A stretch of 64,000 nt of DNA from an uncultured Neomegalonema sp. (lineage in GTDB: Bacteria; Pseudomonadota; Alphaproteobacteria; Rhodobacterales; Rhodobacteraceae): the NCBI GenBank assembly GCA_937990185.1, contig CALKBI010000013.1, positions 1 through 64,000 on the forward strand, written 5' to 3'. The translations under genes and the position numbers were made by a program. Below are positions 1-14,080 of this stretch, piece after piece (positions within the stretch are counted from its first letter, which is position 1; each line of letters opens with the position of its first letter). The notes beneath the pieces were generated by a model. That model did not search any database. It worked only from the letters and a program-made list of their open reading frames with translations, and had not been told where the DNA came from.

Positions 1-843
1 CAAGATCACCCTCTCACGCCGATGACGGATGCCGATATCCGGCGGTGGCTGCGGTATCAGACACAGAGTGAAGTCGGGCATGTGCCGCTTTCCGTTATCG
101 CGCAAGGACCGCAGGCTGTGCAGTCGGCGCTGGAAGATGCAGCGGCGACACTGCTGATCGCAGATGCGGTGTCCGACGATGATCTGTTGACGCTTGGCGA
201 GGCGCTCGACGGGACCAAGTTGATCACAGGTGGATCGGGTATTGCGCTGGGATTGCCTCGCAACTTCATCCGCTCTGGCACGGCGCAAGGAGGCGGTGTT
301 GCGACGACCGCAGTCCCCGGGCCAGACGCGATCCTGGCGGGATCATGCTCCGGCGCGACACTAGAACAGGTCGAGTGCCATGCGCGCGATTATCCGACGT
401 TGCCTATTGACGTATTCGAGGTGATGGAAGGGCGGACGACTGCCGCAACGTTGACCCAATTCTACCTCGAACATGTGGGGCGCGCTCCGCTCGCCTATTC
501 CTCCGGATTACCGGATCAGGTGCGCGATGTGCAGGCGCGGTTTGGGCGCGAAGCAGTCGCGAATATGCTGGACGCGCTTTTTGCCGATACCGCTCGGCTC
601 CTTGTCAGCAAAGGCTATAGGCGTATCGTCGTTGCGGGTGGTGAGACGTCCGGAGCGGTGGCGCAAGCCGTTGCCGATACGCTAGGCTCCCCTGCAATGA
701 ACATCGGTGTGGAGATTGATCCGGGCGTGCCCATGTTGACTCTGGGCGAAGATGTGCGCGTAGCGTTAGCACTGAAATCGGGTAATTTCGGTGCGCCAGA
801 CTTCTTCTCGAAGGCATTGCGTATCATGGAGGGTAGTACGTGA
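1..843 (+). CDS. otnK: 3-oxo-tetronate kinase / four-carbon acid sugar kinase family (C-terminal part; 5' end outside window)
   Basis: Frame +1 is open from base 1 (QDHPLTPMTDADIRRWLRYQ...); C-terminal nucleotide-binding motifs VAGGETSGAVAQA and LALKSGNFG are typical of the OtnK family; GTGA overlap with the aldolase-like gene. Confidence 0.85.
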   Translation, partial: QDHPLTPMTDADIRRWLRYQTQSEVGHVPLSVIAQGPQAVQSALEDAAATLLIADAVSDDDLLTLGEALDGTKLITGGSGIALGLPRNFIRSGTAQGGGVATTAVPGPDAILAGSCSGATLEQVECHARDYPTLPIDVFEVMEGRTTAATLTQFYLEHVGRAPLAYSSGLPDQVRDVQARFGREAVANMLDALFADTARLLVSKGYRRIVVAGGETSGAVAQAVADTLGSPAMNIGVEIDPGVPMLTLGEDVRVALALKSGNFGAPDFFSKALRIMEGST

Positions 844-1481
844 ACAAACACGAGATCGACCTGCGCGAACAGATGGCTGTGCACTGCGCATCGCTCTTTG
901 CGCGTGGCTTTTCGGTCGGAACGGCTGGGAATGTTTCAGCAAGGCTTGATGACGGCATCCTGATGACACCAACAAATTCGACCCTCGGGAGTATCGACCC
1001 TGAGAGGATCGCGAAGATCGATCTGTCGGGCAATCATGTCGCAGGTGATAAACCGACGAAAGAAGTCTTTCTGCATCAGGCATTCTACGAAACCCGCCCA
1101 CAGACCGGTGCTGTTGTTCATCTGCATTCGACTTGGGCGACTGCGCTTTCCTGTCTGGAGGATACCGACCCGGAAGACTGCGTCCCACCGCTGACGCCTT
1201 ATGTGGTTATGCGCGTTGGAACCGTGAAGATGTTGCCTTACCTCAAGCCGGGAGACCCCCAGACCGGTGAAATGATCCGCGCGTTAGATGGAAAATACGG
1301 AGCTGTCCTGCTTGCCAATCACGGACCCGTCGTCTCCGGCAAGGATCTGTTTTCCGCCGTCTGCGCTGCCGAGGAACTCGAAGAAACGGCAAAGCTGCTC
1401 GTCGCACTACGAGGGCAGAAGACGCGGATGTTGTCGGAAACCGATGTCGCCGAATTAAAGCAAACATTCGGTCAAATTTGA
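840..1481 (+). CDS. otnC: 3-oxo-tetronate 4-phosphate decarboxylase / class II aldolase-adducin family
   Basis: 213 aa; motifs GTAGNVSARL, VVHLHSTWATALS and LLANHGPVV of class II aldolases; GTG start overlapping the otnK stop. Confidence 0.85.
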   Translation: MNKHEIDLREQMAVHCASLFARGFSVGTAGNVSARLDDGILMTPTNSTLGSIDPERIAKIDLSGNHVAGDKPTKEVFLHQAFYETRPQTGAVVHLHSTWATALSCLEDTDPEDCVPPLTPYVVMRVGTVKMLPYLKPGDPQTGEMIRALDGKYGAVLLANHGPVVSGKDLFSAVCAAEELEETAKLLVALRGQKTRMLSETDVAELKQTFGQI

Positions 1482-1488
1482 GAACGAC

Positions 1489-1986
1489 GTGAAGACCACC
1501 TCGCTCAAAATCGAGGTAGAAACAGTCGATTTTCCCGACTTGGCTGAGATGCTGTGGGAACGCGTGACGCGCATACCCCACGTTCTGAGGCTGCTTTGCG
1601 AGAACCACTTACGGCATTGTGGAACACTATAGCCACTCCTGAATGCATTCGGCGGCGTCCGCGATGCAGATTTCGAATTCACGTTTCGACCGAACCGCCT
1701 GTTGATGCACGACACCACCTGTACGCCAGCCTTAGCAGATATTGCGGCGATGCTAGATGTCCTGTTCGAAAACGGCGTCGATCCGACCGTCCTATCGCCC
1801 ACACTGCCATTCCAAACCAACCGCAAGGACGCGGGAAAATTTTTACTCTATTCATCAACGAAAGCCATCGATTGCGCACGGAAGTATCAACGTCTACTCC
1901 ACAGGCGCTTACTCTGCGACGCAAGACTATACGGGATCGATATAGAGGCGCAGGAGGCGCAGGCTGATCGGGCGGATATTGTTTGA
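1489..1986 (+). pseudogene. Aconitase-family remnant with in-frame TAG (1630-1632) and unrecognisable 3' part
   Basis: Same frame on both sides of TAG: ...RIPHVLRLLCENHLRHCGTL*PLLNAFGGVRDADFEFTFRPNRLLMHDTTCTPALADIAAMLDVLFENGVDPTVLSPTLP..., matching the aconitase N-terminal LPYSLRVLLENLLR and FxPxRVLMQDFTGVPAVVDLAAMR motifs; homology fades after about 1830. Confidence 0.65.
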
Positions 1987-2037
1987 AGTGACAACGTTGT
2001 TGGAATAAGCCACTCTGGCCTCAGGATTGACCAAAAC

Positions 2038-3252
2038 ATGAGCGGGGGATCTATGACTAAAGTAATCATTGCTGGTACGTTCGACACTAAGGGCGCGGAG
2101 TTGCACTTCGTCCGTGATGTGTTGACCGGCGAAGGATTGGACGTTCGGCTTGTTGACCTATCTACAAGTGGAACTGAGGCTGATACTGACGTAAAGCCGC
2201 GTGACATTGCCGCGTATCATCCAGGTGGAGCGGACGCCGTATTTACAGGTGATCGTGGGACAGCTGTTGCCGCGATGACAAAGGCCTATGAACAATGGAT
2301 GTTGGCCCAAACCGGTGTTGCCGGTGTAATCTCGGCTGGGGGATCTGGTGGCACTGCCCTTGCGGCCCCGGCTATGCGAGCTTTGCCAGTAGGCGTACCT
2401 AAGGTTTTGATCTCGACAGTCGCGAGTGGCAATGTCGAGCAATATGTCGGCCCAGCGGATATCTTTATGTTGCATTCCGTAGCCGATGTGCAGGGCATAA
2501 ACTCGATCACGTGCGAAGTCCTCGGCAATGGCGCAGATGCATTAGCCGGGATGGTAAAGGGCCGCGCGAAACGCACTGCCGTGACGAATGAGAAATCCGC
2601 CATCGGCCTCACGATGTTTGGTGTCACGACACCCTGCGTGCAGCGTGTCATGAGCGCGCTGGAGTCAGACTACGATTGCCTCGTTTTCCATGCGACCGGG
2701 ACTGGCGGACGCGCCATGGAAAAGCTCATGGACAGCGGGATGCTCTCGGCGGTGATCGATCTCACCACAACGGAAATCTGCGACATGGTGGCGGGCGGCG
2801 TGTTTGCCGCGACTGAAGACCGCTTCGGAGCCTCAATTCGAGCCGGGCGACCCTATATCGGCTCGTGCGGTGCGCTCGATATGGTCAATTTCGCCGCACC
2901 GGAGACGGTCCCTGAAAAATATCGCGGACGTCTCCTTTATGAGCATAATCCACAGATTACGCTTATGCGCACAACCGCCGAGGAAAATGCGGTGATGGGA
3001 AAATGGATTGGTGCTCGCCTTAACGAGATGACGGGGCCGGTGCGGTTCTTTCTTCCTGAAGGCGGGGTATCGTTACTAGATGCGCCGGAACAAGCCTTCC
3101 ATGATCCCGCAGCAAATGAAGCGCTGTTTGGTGCGCTGGAGGATACGGTTACAGTTACTGCTGATCGCCAACTGATCCGTGTCCCTTACAATATCAACGA
3201 CCCTGACTTTGCCGACCTCATCGTCGAGACATTTCGTGGTTTTGATCTCTAA
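2038..3252 (+). CDS. Tm-1-like ATP-binding domain-containing protein (UPF0261 family)
   Basis: 404 aa; MTKVIIAGTFDTKGAELHFVRD N-terminus and HATGTGGRAME motif of UPF0261; true start possibly 2053. Confidence 0.85.
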   Translation: MSGGSMTKVIIAGTFDTKGAELHFVRDVLTGEGLDVRLVDLSTSGTEADTDVKPRDIAAYHPGGADAVFTGDRGTAVAAMTKAYEQWMLAQTGVAGVISAGGSGGTALAAPAMRALPVGVPKVLISTVASGNVEQYVGPADIFMLHSVADVQGINSITCEVLGNGADALAGMVKGRAKRTAVTNEKSAIGLTMFGVTTPCVQRVMSALESDYDCLVFHATGTGGRAMEKLMDSGMLSAVIDLTTTEICDMVAGGVFAATEDRFGASIRAGRPYIGSCGALDMVNFAAPETVPEKYRGRLLYEHNPQITLMRTTAEENAVMGKWIGARLNEMTGPVRFFLPEGGVSLLDAPEQAFHDPAANEALFGALEDTVTVTADRQLIRVPYNINDPDFADLIVETFRGFDL

Positions 3253-3272
3253 CAAATAGGATTTGCTAGTTT

Positions 3273-4100
3273 ATGTTTAGCCGAACTGAGCTTCTAGAAA
3301 AATATCAAGGCATGATTGCACGGGGCGAACCTATCATTGGCGGCGGTGCCGGAACCGGTCTTTCCGCAAAATGCGAGGAAGCCGGCGGAATTGACTTGAT
3401 CGTTATCTACAATTCCGGGCGCTATCGCATGGCCGGGCGCGGATCACTCGCTGGCCTGATGCCCTATGGCGATGCAAATGGTGTCGTGATGGAGATGGCA
3501 GGAGAAGTTCTGCCCGTCGTCAAACACACGCCCGTTCTCGCTGGAGTTTGCGCGTCCGACCCGTTTCGCCTGATGGACAAGTTTCTCGACGAGATCAAAG
3601 CGGCGGGCTTTTCCGGGATTCAGAACTTTCCCACCGTGGGCCTGATCGATGGCACCTTCCGAGCGAACCTCGAAGAAACGGGCATGTCTTATCAACTCGA
3701 AGTCGATGTCGTGAAGATGGCCCATGACAAGGATATGTTTACGACGCCTTATGTGTTCTCCGCTGAGGATGCCAAGAAGATGGCAAAGGCAGGGGCCGAT
3801 ATCATCGTTTGCCATATTGGCCTGACCACGGGCGGTAATATCGGGGCGGAGACAGGCGTGACGCTGGAGCAAGTCCCGGCTCTGGTAGATGAATGGTCGG
3901 CGGCAGCATTGGCAATCAATCCGAATGCGATCATTCTAGTTCACGGTGGTCCGGTTGCAATGCCAGAAGACGCAGATTTCGTGCTAAAGAATACGAATAC
4001 CTGCCATGGTTTCTACGGCGCGTCGTCGATGGAGCGGTTGCCAACGGAAATTGCACTCACAGAGCAGACGCGCAAATTCAAACAGATAGGGCTTAGCTAA
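3273..4100 (+). CDS. Phosphoenolpyruvate hydrolase family protein (Tm-1-like TIM barrel)
   Basis: 275 aa; [55 protein letters not shown] and [16 protein letters not shown] motifs. Confidence 0.85.
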
Positions 4101-4429: not shown

Positions 4430-5974
4430 TTAAGGCTCTCCCGTTCCAATCGTTTCTTTGCGTCTGCTGACATACGCGTCGAGCGCTTCGGCACGATCTG
4501 GTTCTAATTCAGGTTCTTCATATTCAACCAAAGCTTGCTGCCATAATGCGGTCGCTCGTTCAGTTGCAGTTTTTGAACCCGCGAGTTCCCATGCTTCAAA
4601 ATTTTGCCAGTCTGATAGCATGGGTTGATAAAATGCAGTCTCATACCGCGCGAGCGTATGCGGTGTGCCGAAGAAATGCCCTCCCGTTTGGACATCGCTC
4701 ATCGCGTCAAATGCGAGCGTTCCCTCGTCAATGATAATTGGATCGAGGAACGACATCATGTGTTGGAGCATCTCGACATCCAGCACCAGTTTCTCCAGCG
4801 AGGCACAAAGCCCGCCCTCCAGCCACCCCGCTGCATGGTAGTGAAGATTCGCATGTCCAAGGGTGCAGCCCCAGAGCGCCATTTGAGTCTCGTAGGTCGC
4901 CTGCGCATCAACTATATTCGACGCATTCGTGGGGCTTGCGCGATACGGCAAACCGTAGCGCCTTGCGAGTTGTCCGCTGGCGATGTTGGCTTTGGTGTTC
5001 TCCGGGGTTCCAAAAGCGGGCGCGCCGGACCGCATATCGACATTGGACGTGTAAGATCCGTAGAAGACAGGCGCGCCCTTTCGCACGAGTTGTGTCAGTG
5101 CAATCCCGAATAACGCTTCTGCATTCTGCTGAGCCAAAGCCGCAGCGATCGTCACCGGAGTCATTGCGCCCATTAGTGTAAAGGGTGTTACTGCCACGGG
5201 TTGCCCATGCCGCGACATAGCCATCAACCCCTCGGCCATCGTGTCATCAAACTTGCGCGGCGAGTTTACCGAGATGATCGTCGTGACACCGGGATCATTT
5301 GCCATTTCTTCAACTGTGATGCCACGCGCTATTGCCTGCATCTCGATGGCATCTAGCGCACGGCCAGTACCGATTGCCGTTGCATGAAAGCATAGGTCAG
5401 ACAGGCGAATACTAGCGCGATAGGTATCCATATGGCGCGTGTTTGCTGGCAGTTCGACAGGGGCGCAGACCTGATTGCCGATGATGTGAATCGCGTTGAA
5501 GTGATGCGCGAGCTTTGTGAATGTCTCGTAGTCCTGCATGTTGCCGCTACGCCGGCCATTGATGCAATCATGAACGGAAGGCGGACCGGCAACAAGGCCG
5601 AACGCCATGTAATCACCTCCGAAAACTAGCCTCTTATCAGGGTTGCGCGAGGTGAGGGTAAACTCGGAAGGTGCAGTCGATATCAGGCTTTCGATTAACG
5701 CGGGGTCGAGTCGAACAATCTGTGTTGTTTCGTCGACCAATGCACCGGCGGCAGAAAATAAATCACGGGCTTCGGCGCTCATTAATTCGATGCCCAGCTC
5801 ACATAAAATACGGAGTGACGCTTGATGAATGGCTTCAACTTGATCATCTGACAGCAACCTCATTGGTGGATAAGGGTTGCGCGGCTGTTTCCAAGGGAGT
5901 TGTGGTATCACTCCAGCTGAACTTGCACGATCCCGAGGAGACCCTGTGCTACGGCGACGGCGGCGCTCGGTCAT
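4430..5974 (-). CDS. Trimethylamine methyltransferase (MttB) family protein, non-pyrrolysine
   Basis: 514 aa uninterrupted ORF; MttB-family layout (TSRNPDKRLVFGGDYMAFGLVAGPPSVHDCINGRRSGNMQDYETFTKLAHHF); overlaps upstream gene by ATGA. Confidence 0.85.
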   Translation of the reverse strand: MTERRRRRSTGSPRDRASSAGVIPQLPWKQPRNPYPPMRLLSDDQVEAIHQASLRILCELGIELMSAEARDLFSAAGALVDETTQIVRLDPALIESLISTAPSEFTLTSRNPDKRLVFGGDYMAFGLVAGPPSVHDCINGRRSGNMQDYETFTKLAHHFNAIHIIGNQVCAPVELPANTRHMDTYRASIRLSDLCFHATAIGTGRALDAIEMQAIARGITVEEMANDPGVTTIISVNSPRKFDDTMAEGLMAMSRHGQPVAVTPFTLMGAMTPVTIAAALAQQNAEALFGIALTQLVRKGAPVFYGSYTSNVDMRSGAPAFGTPENTKANIASGQLARRYGLPYRASPTNASNIVDAQATYETQMALWGCTLGHANLHYHAAGWLEGGLCASLEKLVLDVEMLQHMMSFLDPIIIDEGTLAFDAMSDVQTGGHFFGTPHTLARYETAFYQPMLSDWQNFEAWELAGSKTATERATALWQQALVEYEEPELEPDRAEALDAYVSRRKETIGTGEP

Positions 5975-6720
5975 GCAATATTCCTATTCGATAGTAATCG
6001 CCCAAAATTGGGGCCAGAGCATTCAAGCCTGAGGTGGTCCAAAGCGACGCGCATCATTGCTTGGTTCGACGTGATCACTGGCTTACCCAGATCACTTTCC
6101 AGTCGTTCGATAACCTCGACGCTTCTCATGTCAGTGCAAGACAAAACCAAAGCTTCTGCGTCTGCATGATCCGCCCGCATCGCCAAATCATAGACCGCAT
6201 CCGGCGTGAGTTCGCCTTGCCCGTAATTGCCCAACGCGACAGGGTAGTCCGCCCTTGAGACCGTTTCACAACCGCTATCGGCAAGGAACGCAATCGCCAC
6301 GTCATTCAGCGAGGCGACATAGGGCGAAGCAAAAGCGATTTTCTTAATCTTTAAAGACGCGAGAGCCGAGACCAATGCACCCGCAGCAGTAATAGTTTTC
6401 GCCCCGCTTATTGCTTCGACTTTTGCGCTCAGATCTCGGTCGAATGAGACGCCATGCGACAGGGTTGCAGAGGTACACCCGTAAAGAACCACATCCGGTT
6501 TGACACCTCCGATCAGGCGTAAAGTTTCGTCAATATCTGCAGCACCAAGACCGGCCATCTGAGCAGCATCGGGTATCTCGTCCACATCGTAATCGCCCAG
6601 CCGTGCCGAATGAACCGACACGCCGGGAGGCGAAAGCAGTATGATATCCGGTTCCAGATTGGTGTTTGTGAACGGCACTAATACGCCAATTCTTGCGATA
6701 CCTCGGGTTGGAGAGATCAT
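5971..6720 (-). CDS. Asp/Glu racemase superfamily protein (maleate isomerase / arylmalonate decarboxylase-like)
   Basis: MISPTRGIARIGVLVPFTNTNLEPD...VVLYGCTSATLSHG...LVLSCTDMRS; both catalytic-type Cys present; ATGA overlap with aminotransferase gene. Confidence 0.8.
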   Translation of the reverse strand: MISPTRGIARIGVLVPFTNTNLEPDIILLSPPGVSVHSARLGDYDVDEIPDAAQMAGLGAADIDETLRLIGGVKPDVVLYGCTSATLSHGVSFDRDLSAKVEAISGAKTITAAGALVSALASLKIKKIAFASPYVASLNDVAIAFLADSGCETVSRADYPVALGNYGQGELTPDAVYDLAMRADHADAEALVLSCTDMRSVEVIERLESDLGKPVITSNQAMMRVALDHLRLECSGPNFGRLLSNRNIA

Positions 6721-7781
6721 GTTGCTCCTCCCATAAAACTTTTGAGACACGCGGCTGCGCGCTGCATTGTCTGCTCATCCCCAATGGTTGCGCGAAGGCA
6801 ATGCGCCAAACCGTACCCCCCCATTGCGCGCATTGCGATGCCATCGGCTCGTAAAGCCTGATCCGCCGCTTGTGCGTGTTCCGCTGTGTCAAATACGAGG
6901 ATCGCAAAATTGGCAAAACTGTCTGGAACTGTAAGATTGAGCGCACGCATTTCAGTAATAAAATGATCCCGAATTTCAGTCGTCTTCCTAACTGTTTCTA
7001 GCATATATGTTTGATCCCGCATGGCCGCAGCGGTTGCCGCTTGTGAAACGTTGCTGACGTTATTCGGATTCAAGACCTTACGCATTTCAGCGGCTAGCGG
7101 GGGCGGAAACAACCCCCATCCAACGCGAAATCCGGCGCAGCCATAGGCTTTGGAAAATGTCCTGAGAACCGCTGTATTTTCTTGGTCTACCAGATCAAAA
7201 GTGCTCTCCGAGAGGGCATCGGAAAACTCGCCATACGCTTCGTCGATGACAAGCATAACGTCTTTCGATAACCCGTCTCGCAAACGCCGGAGAGCTGGAG
7301 TCTCAATACGAGTGCCGGTCGGATTCCCCGGATTGGCAACGAATACAATCTTAGTATTAGGCCGAACAGAATCTAACAGAGCATCTACATTGACGGTTAG
7401 ATCATGTTCGGGTGCCAGGTCGAACTCTGCGCCCGAAAGCTGCGTTGCTGTCCGGAAAAACAGATAAGAAAACTCGGTTGTCAGCATCCGATCACCGGCC
7501 CCAAGATAACTTGAGGCCAGCGCTCCTATCAGTTCCATCGACCCCGCACCGCATAGGATATGATCTGCTGAGATCGAATGAACTTGCGCGATTACAGATC
7601 GCAACTCCGTCCAATCTGGATCGGGATAAAGATGTGTTTCCGCCAAAGCCATTTGAACAGCTTCCGTCACTTTTGGACTCGGAGGGCGCAGACTTTCGTT
7701 TTGGGCAAGCGACGTTAATTCAGGCGCGAGGTCGGCGAGGGCATAGGGCGCGAGGGCCGCAATATGAGGAACTGGTTTCAT
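6717..7781 (-). CDS. PLP-dependent aminotransferase, histidinol-phosphate aminotransferase-like
   Basis: NPGNPTGTRI, VIDEAYGEFSD, RTFSKAYGCAGFRVGWG motifs (fold type I, HisC-like). Confidence 0.85.
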   Translation of the reverse strand: MKPVPHIAALAPYALADLAPELTSLAQNESLRPPSPKVTEAVQMALAETHLYPDPDWTELRSVIAQVHSISADHILCGAGSMELIGALASSYLGAGDRMLTTEFSYLFFRTATQLSGAEFDLAPEHDLTVNVDALLDSVRPNTKIVFVANPGNPTGTRIETPALRRLRDGLSKDVMLVIDEAYGEFSDALSESTFDLVDQENTAVLRTFSKAYGCAGFRVGWGLFPPPLAAEMRKVLNPNNVSNVSQAATAAAMRDQTYMLETVRKTTEIRDHFITEMRALNLTVPDSFANFAILVFDTAEHAQAADQALRADGIAMRAMGGYGLAHCLRATIGDEQTMQRAAACLKSFMGGAT

Positions 7782-9430
7782 TCTGCGCTCCATCCATATT
7801 GGTCGCGCGCGGCATCCGCACTCACTACACCATCGTTCACATCCCGTGAAAGGGCAATGCGGTCGCGATCTTCAGGTGAACCAAAGCCACCTCCGCCGGG
7901 TGTTTCAAAGATTAATGTCTCTCTGGCCTCAACACGAACTTCGCCCTTACTCGGCAAGTCGGGACCGTTCCCGACGCGGATACGCCCGGACATACCGGCC
8001 TGTCCTCCCGCGCGTCCTTTTGCAGGATGCTTGACACGTTCGACCGAAAGGAACAGCAGAAACGGATTGCCATTTGCGGATTCGACTTCGATCCGCTGAC
8101 CGAGACCACCCCGCATTTTTCCGGCTCCACCGCTATCGGGTCGCAATTCTCGCCGTTTGATAAGGACAGGCGCGACACTTTCGCTAATCTCGACTTGTGA
8201 ACCTAGGACGCCGCTGGGATAGGCTGTGGCCGACAGTCCATCTTTGCTTGGCCGTGCACCTGTCCCGCCATTATGAACGAACTCAATCGCGAAGGCCTCG
8301 CCGCCGTCACGAGCAACTTCAGGCGCGCTTCGCAGGGGAAGATCATACATCGCGGATGCGCCTTCTGCCGGAACACGATCCGGCAAGGCTTGATGCAGGC
8401 AACCGAACACCAAGTCAGGAGTCATCTGCCCCAACGTATGGCGCATCGCTACAGGTGCGGGCGGCTGTGCATTGAGGATACAGTCTTTCGGTCCGGTAAC
8501 GCGAAAGAGGTCGAGCGATCCTGCGTTATTGGGAATCTCCGGCCCGATAATGCACCGCATCGCAAAGACTGAATAGGCCGTCGCATAATTGAGCGGCACA
8601 TTAATGCCGTATCGCGAGCACCCCGACGTTCCCTCAAAATCGAGCGTAATGCCGGTTTCTTCAACAGTCAGTTTCGCGACAAGCTCAATCTCGCTTTCAT
8701 AGCCGTCAACCATGAGGCGGCTGCAATAAACGCCTTTCGGGACTTCGTTAATCGCCGTCAGCGTTCCCCGTCGCGATATTTCAATAATATGCTCTGCTAG
8801 AGGATCGAGGTGATCAAGGTCAAATTCGGCCATCATTCCTGAGAGGCGCTTACTACCGGTTTCGCAACATGCGATCAAAGCATAGATATCGCCTTCATTG
8901 GCAATAGGCTCGCGGGAGTTTGCCTTAACAATATCCACAAGGAGCGCGTTGATCTCGCCTGCATCGACCAGCTTACACGGTGGAATACGTAGCCCTTCAT
9001 CAAAGATATCTGTGCCTTCCGGCCCCATACCCTTGCCGCCCAAATCAACTAGATGCGATGTGCAAGATGTAAAGCCGATCACGCGGTTTTTATGATAGGC
9101 TGGCATCAGCAGCAAAAAATCATTCAAATGCCCGGATGCAATCCACGGGTCATTTGTCATGTAGATATCGCCGGGTTTCATGTCTTCAACAGGAAAGATC
9201 GCAAGTAAGGATTTGACCGCTTCGGCCATTGTGTTGATGTGACCCGGCGTTCCTGTTACCGCCTGCGCAAGCATTCGTCCTTGAAGATCAAATATACCCG
9301 CAGAGATGTCTCCGCATTCACGTACGATAGGACTGAACGCAGCGCGGATGAGCGCCTGACCTTGTTCCTCAACAACGGACAAAAGGCGGTTCCACATAAC
9401 TTGCAGTGTTGTTATATCATGTCTCATCAC
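7778..9430 (-). CDS. hyuB: Hydantoinase B / oxoprolinase family protein
   Basis: 550 aa; MRHDITTLQVMWNRLLSVVEEQGQALIRAAFSPIVRECGDISAGIFD, YMTNDPWIASGHLND typical of HyuB. Confidence 0.9.
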   Translation of the reverse strand: MMRHDITTLQVMWNRLLSVVEEQGQALIRAAFSPIVRECGDISAGIFDLQGRMLAQAVTGTPGHINTMAEAVKSLLAIFPVEDMKPGDIYMTNDPWIASGHLNDFLLLMPAYHKNRVIGFTSCTSHLVDLGGKGMGPEGTDIFDEGLRIPPCKLVDAGEINALLVDIVKANSREPIANEGDIYALIACCETGSKRLSGMMAEFDLDHLDPLAEHIIEISRRGTLTAINEVPKGVYCSRLMVDGYESEIELVAKLTVEETGITLDFEGTSGCSRYGINVPLNYATAYSVFAMRCIIGPEIPNNAGSLDLFRVTGPKDCILNAQPPAPVAMRHTLGQMTPDLVFGCLHQALPDRVPAEGASAMYDLPLRSAPEVARDGGEAFAIEFVHNGGTGARPSKDGLSATAYPSGVLGSQVEISESVAPVLIKRRELRPDSGGAGKMRGGLGQRIEVESANGNPFLLFLSVERVKHPAKGRAGGQAGMSGRIRVGNGPDLPSKGEVRVEARETLIFETPGGGGFGSPEDRDRIALSRDVNDGVVSADAARDQYGWSAE

Positions 9431-11520
9431 TGTTCCTCCTTTCGTACAAGGACAAGGTTGAGAAACCCATCGACCGATACCTCAAAATCGCTACTCACAA
9501 GCGTCGTTGTCTGCGGTTCAACGATTAGGGCAGGGCCTTTGAGGTGATCGCCGGGTTGTAGAATGCTTCGAGGGATAATCGCGGCGCTTATCTGATTGCC
9601 AGTTACATCACATTGAATCTCTCGCGTTTCGCTTGGTTCGATTGATCGACTCTGAGGCGGCTGCTCTGCCTCTGAGGATGGCTTGGAAAGAGTTGAAACC
9701 AGAACTGACCAATTCAATATCTCTATGCTCATGCCCGGCACGGGGCGAGAGAATTGAGCGCTGTATGCTTCTTCAAACATATCTTGCAAAGACGCTTTGT
9801 CGCTTTCAGTTAGAGTGCGATCAGGCAGCGTGATTTCAATTTCATGGCCTTGGCCGTGATAGCGCATGAAAGCGGTTCGCTGTACCTGCAACGCCTCGTC
9901 TGGTGCTCCACTCTGGACGACCGTTTTTGCATCCGTAACCATTGTTTCGAACAGCGCGTTAATTGCCGAAAGATTAAGAGTGTTGAGGCGGGAATAATGG
10001 CTGCGTACGAGTTCGAATGAAACCGGCGCATCCAGAAAACCGACCGCTGAGCCGACGCCCGGATCGAGCGGGATTAAGATGCGCTTGATCCCCGCTCGCC
10101 GTGCAACGCGGGTCGCATGGAGCGGACCGTTGCCACCGAAGGCTATCATTGTGCGCCCGGCAAGTTCTTTTCCTGACTCGACCGCGTGCATACGCCCGGC
10201 GCTCGCCATGTTTTCATCAACAATCTGGCTCACACCGCGCGCTGAGGCCGTCGGCGAAAGCCCCAGCGCATTTCCAATCGAATGTAACAGCGCTTTGTCT
10301 GCTGCGCCTGTATCAATGCGAAGCCGTCCCTCTGCAAAGCGGTCAGGGTCAATGTAGCCGAGCGATACGTCTGCATCCGTAACCGTTGCATCCACTCCGC
10401 CCCGTGCGAAGGCAGCAGGTCCGGGTTCCGAACCGGCACTTTGTGGACCGACAGTAATCCGATCCAGAGAATCGACCGAGGCGATAGAACCGCCTCCGGC
10501 CCCAATCTCGATCATCTCTACAACGGGAATCCGCACTGGCATTCCACTGCCTTTGATGAATCGGGCCGCACGCGCGATCTCGAAGTTCCGTGACGTTTGT
10601 GGAGCGTAGTCGTCTATCAGGCACAGTTTGGCTGTTGTCCCGCCAATATCAAAAGAAAGCACACGGTCTAGTCCGGTGTTTTGGGCAACGCGTGCGGCTA
10701 GCACTGCTCCGCCTGAAGGTCCGCTTTCGACCAATCTAATCGGTAGGCGCTGCGCAGTTTCAATTGTGGTCATGCCGCCACCGGATGTCATCATCAGGAT
10801 CGGGCATCGCAAACCTTCTTTAGCGAAGGTCTTTGCAAACTGTGCCAGATAGGTGGCCATCAAAGGTTGAATATAAGCATTCGCAACTGTGGTGCATAAC
10901 CGTTCAAATTCCCGTGCTTCGGGGCTGACGTCAGATGAAAGAGAGACAAAAATTTCGGGTCGACGTGCGGTAATTAAATCGCGCAGACGCTGTTCATGAA
11001 CCGGGTTCGCGTAAGAATGTAGCAGGCAAATTGCCAAGGCCGTCGCGCCGCTTGCATCAATCTCGGTGAGTAATCTGTCGATAGAGGTTTCGTCTAGCGG
11101 AGTCAGAATATCTCCATGGACATTCATTCGCTCGGGAACCGTGAAGCACCGCGAGCGCGGTACAATCAAGTCGGGTTTGTCGATGTTGATATCGTACTGG
11201 CTGTAGCGCCGCTCATAGGCAATCTCGAGGATATCACGAAAGCCCTCAGTGGTGATTCCGGCAACAACAGCGCCGCGCCGCTCAATCAGTGCATTTGTTG
11301 CGAGCGTGGTTCCGTGAACGAATGCCGTGACCTGCTCAATGCCAATACCTAATTCTCTCAAAACAATACGGGTTCCGTCCAGCGCGCCGCTCGTCGGGTC
11401 GGATGGTGTTGTCGGCGTTTTAGCCGTCGCACAAATTGCGCCGTTGTTATCAGCAATAGCAACATCGGTGAAAGTGCCACCGATATCGACGGCCAGCCGA
11501 TATTGATCTTGTGAAGTCAT
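9427..11520 (-). CDS. hyuA: Hydantoinase A / oxoprolinase family protein
   Basis: 697 aa; VDIGGTFTDVAI, HGTTLATNALIERRG, SFDIGGTTAKLCLI. Confidence 0.9.
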   Translation of the reverse strand: MTSQDQYRLAVDIGGTFTDVAIADNNGAICATAKTPTTPSDPTSGALDGTRIVLRELGIGIEQVTAFVHGTTLATNALIERRGAVVAGITTEGFRDILEIAYERRYSQYDINIDKPDLIVPRSRCFTVPERMNVHGDILTPLDETSIDRLLTEIDASGATALAICLLHSYANPVHEQRLRDLITARRPEIFVSLSSDVSPEAREFERLCTTVANAYIQPLMATYLAQFAKTFAKEGLRCPILMMTSGGGMTTIETAQRLPIRLVESGPSGGAVLAARVAQNTGLDRVLSFDIGGTTAKLCLIDDYAPQTSRNFEIARAARFIKGSGMPVRIPVVEMIEIGAGGGSIASVDSLDRITVGPQSAGSEPGPAAFARGGVDATVTDADVSLGYIDPDRFAEGRLRIDTGAADKALLHSIGNALGLSPTASARGVSQIVDENMASAGRMHAVESGKELAGRTMIAFGGNGPLHATRVARRAGIKRILIPLDPGVGSAVGFLDAPVSFELVRSHYSRLNTLNLSAINALFETMVTDAKTVVQSGAPDEALQVQRTAFMRYHGQGHEIEITLPDRTLTESDKASLQDMFEEAYSAQFSRPVPGMSIEILNWSVLVSTLSKPSSEAEQPPQSRSIEPSETREIQCDVTGNQISAAIIPRSILQPGDHLKGPALIVEPQTTTLVSSDFEVSVDGFLNLVLVRKEEQ

Positions 11521-11760: not shown

Positions 11761-12696
11761 ATGGCGCTTCTACTCGATATCAGACAGCCTGAATGGATGA
11801 CGGAAGCGGCCCTCTATGATTTGCTCAAACCGTTGATGCCTGAGACGCCGATCTATTACTCGTTCGACGACTGCCCGCTTGAAGAGATCAAAATGCTCGC
11901 CGTCTCAAAATTGCATCCCGGAGTGGTCGAGCGTTTGCCAAATCTAACTTTGGTACAAAAGTTGGGTGCGGGGGTGGAAACCATCGTTGGCAATCCCGAG
12001 CTGCGAGATGGTATCCGTATAGCTCGACTTGCGCCTGATACGCCAGCGGATGAGATCGCCGAATATGCGCTTGCGTATGTTCTGCGTGCACAACGAAATA
12101 TGGCGCAGCATGAAGCATCCGCCACGATGCGAGAATGGACTCCCCTTGCACCCAAGAAAAGCAAAGAAGCGATAGTCGCGGTATTAGGCCTTGGTCATAT
12201 TGGCGGACGAACAGCCCGTCTGTTCGCGGCTCTCGGTTTTAAGACGGTCGGTTGGAGCCGGACGCTCAAATCAATTCCCGGCGTCAATTGCAGAGCGGGC
12301 CTCGACACCCTTGATGATGTTTTGGCGCAAGCGGATTATGTCATCTCGATTTTACCATCGACGCCTGAGACGGCGAATCTTTTTGATGGCGCACGCCTGA
12401 ACGCCATGAAGCCAACGGCAATGCTTATAAATGCAGGGCGTGGTGATCTGATTGTCGAGGCTGATTTGATCTCAGCACTGAATAATGAACGGCTGGGTGC
12501 AGCAGTGCTGGATGTCTTCCGGCAAGAACCTTTGCCACGAGATCATCCGTTTTGGGCGCACAAAAAGATCATGGTGACACCACATGTTTCCGGCTGGCAC
12601 ATTGATGATGGGCTTACCGTCGTGGCGGATAATTACCGGCGGCTCTTGTCTGGCAAGCCGCTCTTGAATGAAGTGAACATTTCGCGCGGGTACTGA
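11761..12696 (+). CDS. D-2-hydroxyacid dehydrogenase (glyoxylate/hydroxypyruvate reductase A-like)
   Basis: 311 aa; VLGLGHIGGRTARLFAALGF, LINAGRGDLIVEADL, VTPHVSGW motifs. Confidence 0.85.
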   Translation: MALLLDIRQPEWMTEAALYDLLKPLMPETPIYYSFDDCPLEEIKMLAVSKLHPGVVERLPNLTLVQKLGAGVETIVGNPELRDGIRIARLAPDTPADEIAEYALAYVLRAQRNMAQHEASATMREWTPLAPKKSKEAIVAVLGLGHIGGRTARLFAALGFKTVGWSRTLKSIPGVNCRAGLDTLDDVLAQADYVISILPSTPETANLFDGARLNAMKPTAMLINAGRGDLIVEADLISALNNERLGAAVLDVFRQEPLPRDHPFWAHKKIMVTPHVSGWHIDDGLTVVADNYRRLLSGKPLLNEVNISRGY

Positions 12697-12706
12697 AAGC
12701 AACTCT

Positions 12707-14080
12707 ATGACACAAATCTCGACGCTCGAAAAACCGTCCGGCGCTTTTGATCGAGTTGCCCGTTTCAACGCAGATTTGCGATTTGAGGATATCCCGGAAG
12801 ACGTAATTGAGATGGCTGCGCTCTATATGCTCGACCTGATCGGCGTGGCCGCCGCAGGAGCGCAGCTTGATGCAGGGAGAATCGCGCGCGATCATGCGGC
12901 GAAGCATTGGGCCGCCTGTCCCGAAGCGTCATCGGCCCGTCTACTGTTTGATGGGCGAGGCACTTCATTGCCGGGTTTTGGGTTCGCTATGGCGACACAA
13001 ATCGATAATCTCGATGCCCATGATGGCTGGCAACCGTCGAAAGGCCACGCCGGAGCGGCGTTATTTCCGGCCTTGGCAGCCTTCGCCCAAGCGGACGACT
13101 CATTAACAGGACGAGAGGCACTCACAGCTTTTGTGAGCGGTTACGAAATCGCCTACCGAGCGGGGGTTGCTCTTCATGCCACCGTTGAGGATTATCATAC
13201 ATCCGGTGCATGGAACTCGCTCGGTTGTGCTGCAATCGGGACAAGGCTTCGCGGCTTGAGTGATGATACATTGCGGCACGCGCTGGGCATTGCGGAATAT
13301 CACAGCCCGCGCAGCCAGATGATGCGCGAGGTCGCCAATCCGACGATGTTACATGATGGCTCAGGCTTCGGCGCGCCTGTTGGCATTCTTGCCGTGCTGC
13401 TCGCCGAAGAAGGATTTACCGGGGCGCCTGCCGCGACGGTGGAATTCGATGATGCCGTGTTTGCATGGGATAGTCTGGGGACTGAATGGGTCACGATCCA
13501 ACAATATATCAAACCCTATCCGATTTGCCGCTGGGCACATGCGGCGATTGATGCAACGCTTGCTTTACGTAAGGAGCACAACCTCTCACCGGAGATGATC
13601 GACCGCGTTGAGATCGCGACTTTTGGCTATTCCGCCGCGTTAAATTGCGATGTGCCGACGAGCACGAGCAATGCTCAATATTCCCTCGCGTGGCCGATCG
13701 CTTGCGCTCTTGTTCGCGGGCGCATTGGCGTAGAAGAAGTCATGGACTCCAGCTTTGACGATCCCAAATTGGTTTCAATGACGAAGCGCGTTTCGGCAAA
13801 TGTTGACCCTGAAATCGAAAAGACATTCCCAAATGAGCGCCTCGCTGCTGTTACCGTCACCTTGCATGGCGGGAAAGTTTTAGAGAGCGGTGTTACCCGA
13901 GCGAGTGGCGGTCCTGATCCTCAACCAAGTCAGGCAGAAGTGGTGGAGAAATTTCGGGATTTTACTGTGCCAATTCTCGGAGCGTCCCGTAGCGAGGCGA
14001 TTGTCGAGACGTGTCTCTCATTGCGTGATGAGAAAAGCCGCTTTCGCAGTCTAACTGATATTCTTACCGAGGCAATCTGA
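12707..14080 (+). CDS. MmgE/PrpD family protein
   Basis: 457 aa; LDLIGVAAAGAQ, HAGAALFPALAAFAQA, FVSGYEIAYRAG, KPYPICRWAHAAIDA. Confidence 0.85.
   Translation: MTQISTLEKPSGAFDRVARFNADLRFEDIPEDVIEMAALYMLDLIGVAAAGAQLDAGRIARDHAAKHWAACPEASSARLLFDGRGTSLPGFGFAMATQIDNLDAHDGWQPSKGHAGAALFPALAAFAQADDSLTGREALTAFVSGYEIAYRAGVALHATVEDYHTSGAWNSLGCAAIGTRLRGLSDDTLRHALGIAEYHSPRSQMMREVANPTMLHDGSGFGAPVGILAVLLAEEGFTGAPAATVEFDDAVFAWDSLGTEWVTIQQYIKPYPICRWAHAAIDATLALRKEHNLSPEMIDRVEIATFGYSAALNCDVPTSTSNAQYSLAWPIACALVRGRIGVEEVMDSSFDDPKLVSMTKRVSANVDPEIEKTFPNERLAAVTVTLHGGKVLESGVTRASGGPDPQPSQAEVVEKFRDFTVPILGASRSEAIVETCLSLRDEKSRFRSLTDILTEAI

Follow-up and report, generated by a model that had tools for sequence, protein, structure and literature searches.

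A real and conserved catabolic unit, apparently uncharacterised, lies on the minus strand at positions 4430-11520 of the window analysed here (64,000 nucleotides of contig CALKBI010000013.1 from an uncultured Neomegalonema sp.), where enzymes of known kinds stand in a new combination and in a lineage-specific five-gene arrangement. According to the open reading frame (ORF) list and the sequence, five same-strand ORFs are contiguous, overlap and read without interruption. They encode HyuA, an alpha-type subunit of ATP-dependent hydantoinases, oxoprolinases and caprolactamases (9427-11520; 697 amino acids (aa); PF05378, PF01968 and PF19278); HyuB, the beta-type, metal-binding hydrolase subunit (7778-9430; 550 aa from a GTG or 549 aa from an ATG start; PF02538, 478 bits); a HisC-like fold-type I aminotransferase dependent on pyridoxal phosphate (PLP) (6717-7781; 354 aa; PF00155); a racemase or isomerase resembling EutA, maleate isomerase and arylmalonate decarboxylase, hereafter EutA-like (5971-6720; 249 aa; PF17645); and an N-demethylase of the non-pyrrolysine MttB superfamily (4430-5974; 514 aa in an open frame; PF06253, 661.9 bits). 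We read this as a two-module catabolic operon, in which a core that would open a lactam-type ring is joined by accessory B12-dependent N-demethylation, a reading for which we see the chances as about evenly balanced. The observations behind it are the gene content, the overlaps, the synteny, the intact catalytic residues and the corrinoid and pterin partners encoded in the genome.

The conserved unit is four genes, not five. In a survey of one genome per species, 80 loci were picked through the EutA-like protein, which biases the sample towards that gene, and the neighbouring genes in relatives were called with a codon-usage ORF caller; 68 of the loci are flanked by at least 5 kb on either side. 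The complete core of HyuA, HyuB, HisC-like and EutA-like genes is present in 66 of these 68 well-flanked loci, mostly in Rhodobacterales, and its carriers are dozens of mostly marine alphaproteobacteria, including Ruegeria, Leisingera and Roseovarius. Three same-genus relatives (G004, G010 and G011) carry the core at 72-88% identity with no adjoining MttB, the G010 contig stopping ~580 bases past EutA. The sequence-only reading had described a five-gene operon and suggested looking for conserved synteny: the five overlapping genes are indeed found here and the core is syntenic in relatives, but five genes are not the conserved unit, as MttB is separable and the exact five-gene order is absent from the other genomes examined.

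Short overlaps join all five genes. It had been proposed that every junction is an ATGA overlap, and this holds for HyuB/HisC (7778-7781), HisC/EutA (6717-6720) and EutA/MttB (5971-5974), but not for HyuA/HyuB (9427-9430; AGGAGGAACAGTGATGAG), where a HyuB start at GTG 9430 gives GTGA and one at ATG 9427 gives a 1-nt overlap (TGATG); the spacing of ATG 9427 to the upstream AGGAGG is better than that of GTG 9430. When ATGA, GTGA and TTGA were counted in relatives, 4-nt overlaps were found at 69 of 75 HyuA/HyuB, 73 of 75 HyuB/HisC and 75 of 79 HisC/EutA junctions, a recurrence which argues that they are more than chance. The fourth overlap, EutA/MttB, was found in this genome alone among those examined. 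Judged from sequence, the five genes appear to form one transcriptional and translational unit; promoter and terminator scans returned nothing above chance level.

The association of MttB with the core is non-random, although MttB is separable from it. In 13 of the 68 well-flanked loci, the surroundings of the core include an MttB that is at least 60% identical (11 of these 13 also have PrpD), and core-adjacent MttB genes are often accompanied by MmgE/PrpD, a 2-hydroxyacid dehydrogenase (2HADH) and sarcosine oxidase or a dimethylglycine-dehydrogenase-like (DMGDH-like) protein. In G212, a genome of a different family, a single 27-kb contig carries PrpD-2HADH-MttB facing HyuA-HyuB-HisC-EutA. Within the genus, where the genomes are drafts of 68-99% completeness, MttB is found in 4/4 genomes with the core versus 2/10 without it (Fisher p ~0.015, calculated by hand). 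In the MttB tree, a supported clade of 28 (98/94) unites the window sequence with the core-linked ones; within it, the window sequence belongs to a subclade of the genus and those of Roseobacters and G212 to a second subclade, so that linkage to the core was gained or lost on more than one occasion. Since the MttB orthologues of G004, G010 and G011 (78-79% identity) stand on another contig than the core, the EutA/MttB overlap is apparently private to this genome. The closest MttB, at 85%, is that of G009, which shows a weak EutA-profile match alone. The 3.5-Mb genome also encodes four further full-length MttB-superfamily paralogues, 27-46% identical to that of the window (contigs C6, C34, C25 and C41), one of which adjoins SoxA/SoxG and DMGDH-like genes.

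This separability feeds the strongest alternative, in which MttB would be a passenger, a general quaternary-amine demethylase that arrived downstream of the core and became co-expressed with it while sharing no substrate, the core itself acting on a lactam or hydantoin-like compound that is unmethylated. It would explain why the five-gene order was seen in this genome alone, why MttB stands alone in same-genus relatives, and why core and MttB are each widespread without the other; we regard it as possible, if on the doubtful side. Several observations likewise weigh against the two-module reading. No close MttB lies within ~10 kb of the core in 55 of the 68 loci; in same-genus relatives its neighbours are unrelated genes; S. 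meliloti, Shinella, G132 and G199 possess MttB but not the core; and several genomes of the MttB clade show weak EutA matches at most. In the family f34, a close MttB is present in 1 of 16 genomes, that one lacking EutA. An EutA homologue of 49-54% identity is encoded in 14 of the 16 f34 genomes, mostly with neither HyuAB nor HisC beside it, so that EutA alone is no marker of the pathway. HyuA-HyuB-EutA sets lacking HisC are also found (L206, L211 and Haloarcula), and the operon contains no transporter gene. Against a passenger MttB stands the fact that the same clade, and not the four other full-length paralogues, adjoins the core in several arrangements (as an operon here, convergently in Roseobacters, and with PrpD and 2HADH in G212), as does the genus co-occurrence of 4/4 versus 2/10. 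Two neighbourhoods were set aside as pathway clues: that of MttB in same-genus relatives (GNAT, NnrU, MobA/MobB and others) as unrelated, and that of EutA in f34 (DUF2889, shikimate kinase/dehydroquinate synthase and cobaltochelatase genes) as uninformative. More distant MttB relatives also exist in f34 (~57% in G297).

As to its function, MttB matches PF06253 across its full length and has no in-frame UAG, which places it in the non-pyrrolysine branch, and it is plausibly a quaternary-nitrogen demethylase. In other genomes its neighbours include heterotetrameric sarcosine oxidase (SoxABDG), a DMGDH-like FAD/GcvT protein, 2HADH, PrpD and LysR, and in Sinorhizobium and Shinella a GlxA-type regulator and a glycine-betaine-type (OpuABC-type) ABC transporter; these neighbours point to quaternary-ammonium catabolism. 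On the S. meliloti plasmid pSymA and in Shinella (L113, L116 and L117), in what is likely a quaternary-amine locus, the MttB orthologue (67%) is found with LysR, M24 peptidase, isochorismatase-family, mandelate-racemase-family and Ldh-family genes. A corrinoid protein is absent among the operon genes; the genome encodes a free-standing B12-binding corrinoid protein on contig C49 (a 238-aa open frame with a DIHDIG motif) and, besides the presumed FolP, a second pterin-binding protein of MetH type (MtgD-like) on contig C18. Judging by these genes alone, a corrinoid-dependent demethylase would have both its corrinoid protein and its predicted methyl acceptor, and with this genome-wide MtgC/MtgD-type pair no corrinoid gene is required within the operon itself. 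A precedent exists in R. pomeroyi, where MtgB works with a corrinoid protein, MtgC, and a pterin protein, MtgD, both of them shared with methionine synthesis (PMC12478193). Like that MtgB-MtgC-MtgD system, which is tied to a split methionine synthase, ours combines a non-pyrrolysine MttB-family protein with free-standing corrinoid and pterin-binding proteins; unlike it, our MttB is linked to ring-opening genes. In D. hafniense MtgB, docking predicts that Y94, N199, R309, H345 and F/Y353 contact glycine betaine (PMC6855144). These positions are A, S, R, H and G here, so that the R and H are kept but Y94, N199 and F353 are replaced and the MtgB signature is absent; the pocket residues are nearly constant within the close clade. 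Since three of five contacts differ, glycine betaine is not an obvious substrate of this MttB, with the caveat that the contacts come from docking and not from crystallography.

The core, for its part, begins with a HyuAB-type amidohydrolase, as seen from the adjacent HyuA and HyuB domains and the ATP motifs. The closest NCBIfam relative of both subunits is caprolactamase (HyuA to CapA, its best match, at 434.4 bits; HyuB to CapB at 194.9 bits), with neither reaching the equivalog cut-off of 1000 bits, and the closest PDB relative of both is N-methylhydantoinase (7hk5, 391 bits for HyuA). The residues of the HyuA ATP motifs DIGGTFTD, D[IMV]GGT and GxxPGP are retained in nearly all orthologues, and HyuB D41, H101, D104 and H126, mapped from caprolactamase, are the four CapB metal ligands (PMC8453981) and are invariant in 77/77 orthologues. 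An N-carbamoyl-amino-acid amidohydrolase (HyuC) was found neither among the five operon genes nor in the two genes divergent from them. Hydantoin operons carry such a carbamoylase, so that its absence, together with the presence of an aminotransferase, favours a lactam rather than a hydantoin as the HyuAB substrate. It is improbable that HyuAB is instead an ATP-dependent carboxylase of the acetone/acetophenone carboxylase type: the superfamily is the same, with acetophenone carboxylase scoring 236 bits in PDB and 267.7 bits in NCBIfam, but N-methylhydantoinase (391 bits) and caprolactamase (434 bits in NCBIfam) match far better, and the operon has no extra carboxylase subunits.

The two remaining core enzymes belong to well-known families but reach the cut-off of neither named member. 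The HisC-like protein scores 244.8 bits on TIGR01141 against a cut-off of 276.55, and another gene elsewhere in the genome scores 318.5 bits, which suggests that the operon gene is probably a HisC paralogue with a different role. Its Y52, N153, D180, Y183, K211, R219, R318 and R330 are invariant in 79/79 orthologues; among them are the HisC-type PLP lysine and substrate arginines of the fold-I family (K211, R318 and R330), roles that we take from their position relative to E. coli HisC. The EutA-like protein scores 93.6 bits on TIGR02990, against an EutA cut-off of 318, and is closest to EutA in NCBIfam and to maleate isomerase 2xec in PDB (E=2e-20). It carries the signature of the maleate isomerase/Asp-Glu racemase superfamily (C82, C195, N19 and Y134, which we take to be its catalytic residues), with C82 conserved in 80/81 orthologues and C195, Y134 and N165 in 81/81. 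The family names first given by the sequence-only reading were thus recovered by Pfam and NCBIfam for hyuA, hyuB, the aminotransferase and MttB; 'Asp/Glu racemase' is better replaced by EutA/maleate isomerase/arylmalonate decarboxylase, and 'HisC' is a sub-cut-off label. EutA homologues are also found in other settings: paired with DUF2889 between aroK/aroB and cobS/cobT in another alphaproteobacterial family (L212 9173-10559 and equivalents in L205-L214), and, as a distant EutA-like racemase with a HisC-like aminotransferase (28% to that of the window), on a Pseudohalocynthiibacter plasmid (L148 9607-17012) in one cluster with UbiD, UbiX, a glutamate-cyclase-domain protein and an ABC transporter.

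Two named routes were also considered, and both are very improbable. In a creatinine/N-methylhydantoin route, HyuAB would yield N-carbamoylsarcosine and Sox would oxidise sarcosine; N-methylhydantoinase is the best PDB match, Sox genes lie near MttB in several relatives, and isochorismatase-family and M24 genes adjoin the S. meliloti MttB, but carbamoylsarcosine amidase is absent among the operon genes, HisC, EutA, PrpD and 2HADH would have no role and MttB would be superfluous. Hercynine/ergothioneine catabolism, in which MttB and Sox/DMGDH would demethylate a trimethyl-histidine derivative, HisC transaminate the imidazole amino acid and HyuAB open a (thio)hydantoin ring, would suit a HisC-like enzyme and a hydantoin-type ring opener, but HisC-like enzymes accept many anionic amino acids, and the annotated neighbours showed no noticeable urocanase-like, ergothionase or desulfhydrase gene.

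Returning to the two-module reading, we infer its substrates, the order of its steps and the action of MttB and the core on one compound as follows. HyuA would use ATP to activate a cyclic amide in its lactim form and HyuB would hydrolyse the activated ring at its metal site, as has been proposed for caprolactamase (PMC8453981). The EutA-like two-cysteine enzyme may racemise or isomerise the substrate or the ring-opened product, and the HisC-like PLP enzyme may transaminate the amino acid set free by ring opening, with 2HADH and the PrpD protein probably acting in later processing steps. MttB would demethylate a quaternary nitrogen, either in the substrate or in its precursor, and hand the methyl group on to a corrinoid protein and a folate methyltransferase whose genes lie elsewhere (MtgC/MtgD type), and sarcosine-oxidase or DMGDH-like enzymes could remove further methyls; where present, MttB and Sox/DMGDH would thus supply the core substrate from an N-methylated precursor. 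The chemistry first proposed, ring opening combined with a quaternary-nitrogen demethylase, is plausible; the N-methylated cyclic amide or betaine suggested with it would be candidate substrates.

Two recurrent partner genes of the core are divergent from the operon on the plus strand: a D-2HADH at 11761-12696 (PF02826) and the MmgE/PrpD gene at 12707-14080 (PF03972 and PF19305). MmgE/PrpD is found near the core in 34 of the 68 loci, 2HADH, of two different subfamilies, in 33, and an aldehyde dehydrogenase in ~10 loci, directly upstream of HyuA in Leisingera. In same-genus relatives, three successive mandelate-racemase/MLE-family genes lie upstream of HyuA (L019 15899-19208), and two creatinase/prolidase-like M24 genes with a threonine-dehydratase-like PLP gene lie downstream of the core (L020 10520-14092). 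In the archaeon Haloarcula litorea (L149 8343-12717), HyuA-HyuB-racemase genes lacking HisC are joined by 4-nt overlaps. At window positions 1-4100, a 3-oxo-tetronate kinase-like gene cut by the contig end is followed by class II aldolase, UPF0261 (Tm-1-like) and phosphoenolpyruvate-hydrolase-like TIM barrel genes.

The closest parallel to the core is caprolactam degradation in Pseudomonas jessenii, by CapAB caprolactamase, the PjAT aminotransferase and 6-oxohexanoate dehydrogenase (PMC6061476, PMC8453981). Both start from a HyuAB-type ATP-dependent ring opener with shared motifs and a shared metal site and continue with a PLP aminotransferase, and some relatives have an aldehyde dehydrogenase near the core. 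Unlike in caprolactam degradation, the aminotransferase here is HisC-like rather than class III omega, the CapA/CapB cut-offs are missed, and EutA-like, MttB, PrpD and 2HADH proteins are added. Hydantoin-utilisation operons consist of hydantoinase HyuAB, carbamoylase HyuC and racemase HyuE; compared by gene content rather than by sequence, they likewise bring HyuA and HyuB together with an Asp/Glu-racemase-superfamily protein, but here a PLP aminotransferase replaces the carbamoylase and the racemase-like protein is of the maleate isomerase/EutA/arylmalonate decarboxylase branch. With EutA and maleate cis-trans isomerase the EutA-like protein shares the fold family and the conserved N, Y and two cysteines, but it differs from EutA of (hydroxy)ectoine utilisation in its score (93.6 versus 318 bits) and in an operon with no other ectoine genes. 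No description of the gene set turned up in a literature search for hydantoinase together with MttB, racemase, PrpD and sarcosine oxidase, in agreement with the initial view that it matches no nameable pathway; a homarine operon was also considered as an explanation, but none was described in the papers searched; the hydantoinase and HisC of a Ruegeria pomeroyi small RNA paper belong to separate loci and not to this cluster.

Much of the dissolved organic nitrogen that phytoplankton produce is turned over by Ruegeria, Leisingera, Roseovarius and their relatives. The defined four-gene unit and its recurrent partner enzymes provide a handle for tracing the compound and for asking if substrates beyond glycine betaine are also served by the shared MtgC/MtgD corrinoid system. 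More tentatively, and with the balance tilting against it, the operon may represent an undescribed marine-alphaproteobacterial route that couples B12-dependent betaine-type demethylation to ATP-dependent cyclic-amide opening, isomerisation and transamination; if so, it would be devoted to an N-methylated cyclic osmolyte or alkaloid for which no degradation of this kind is known.

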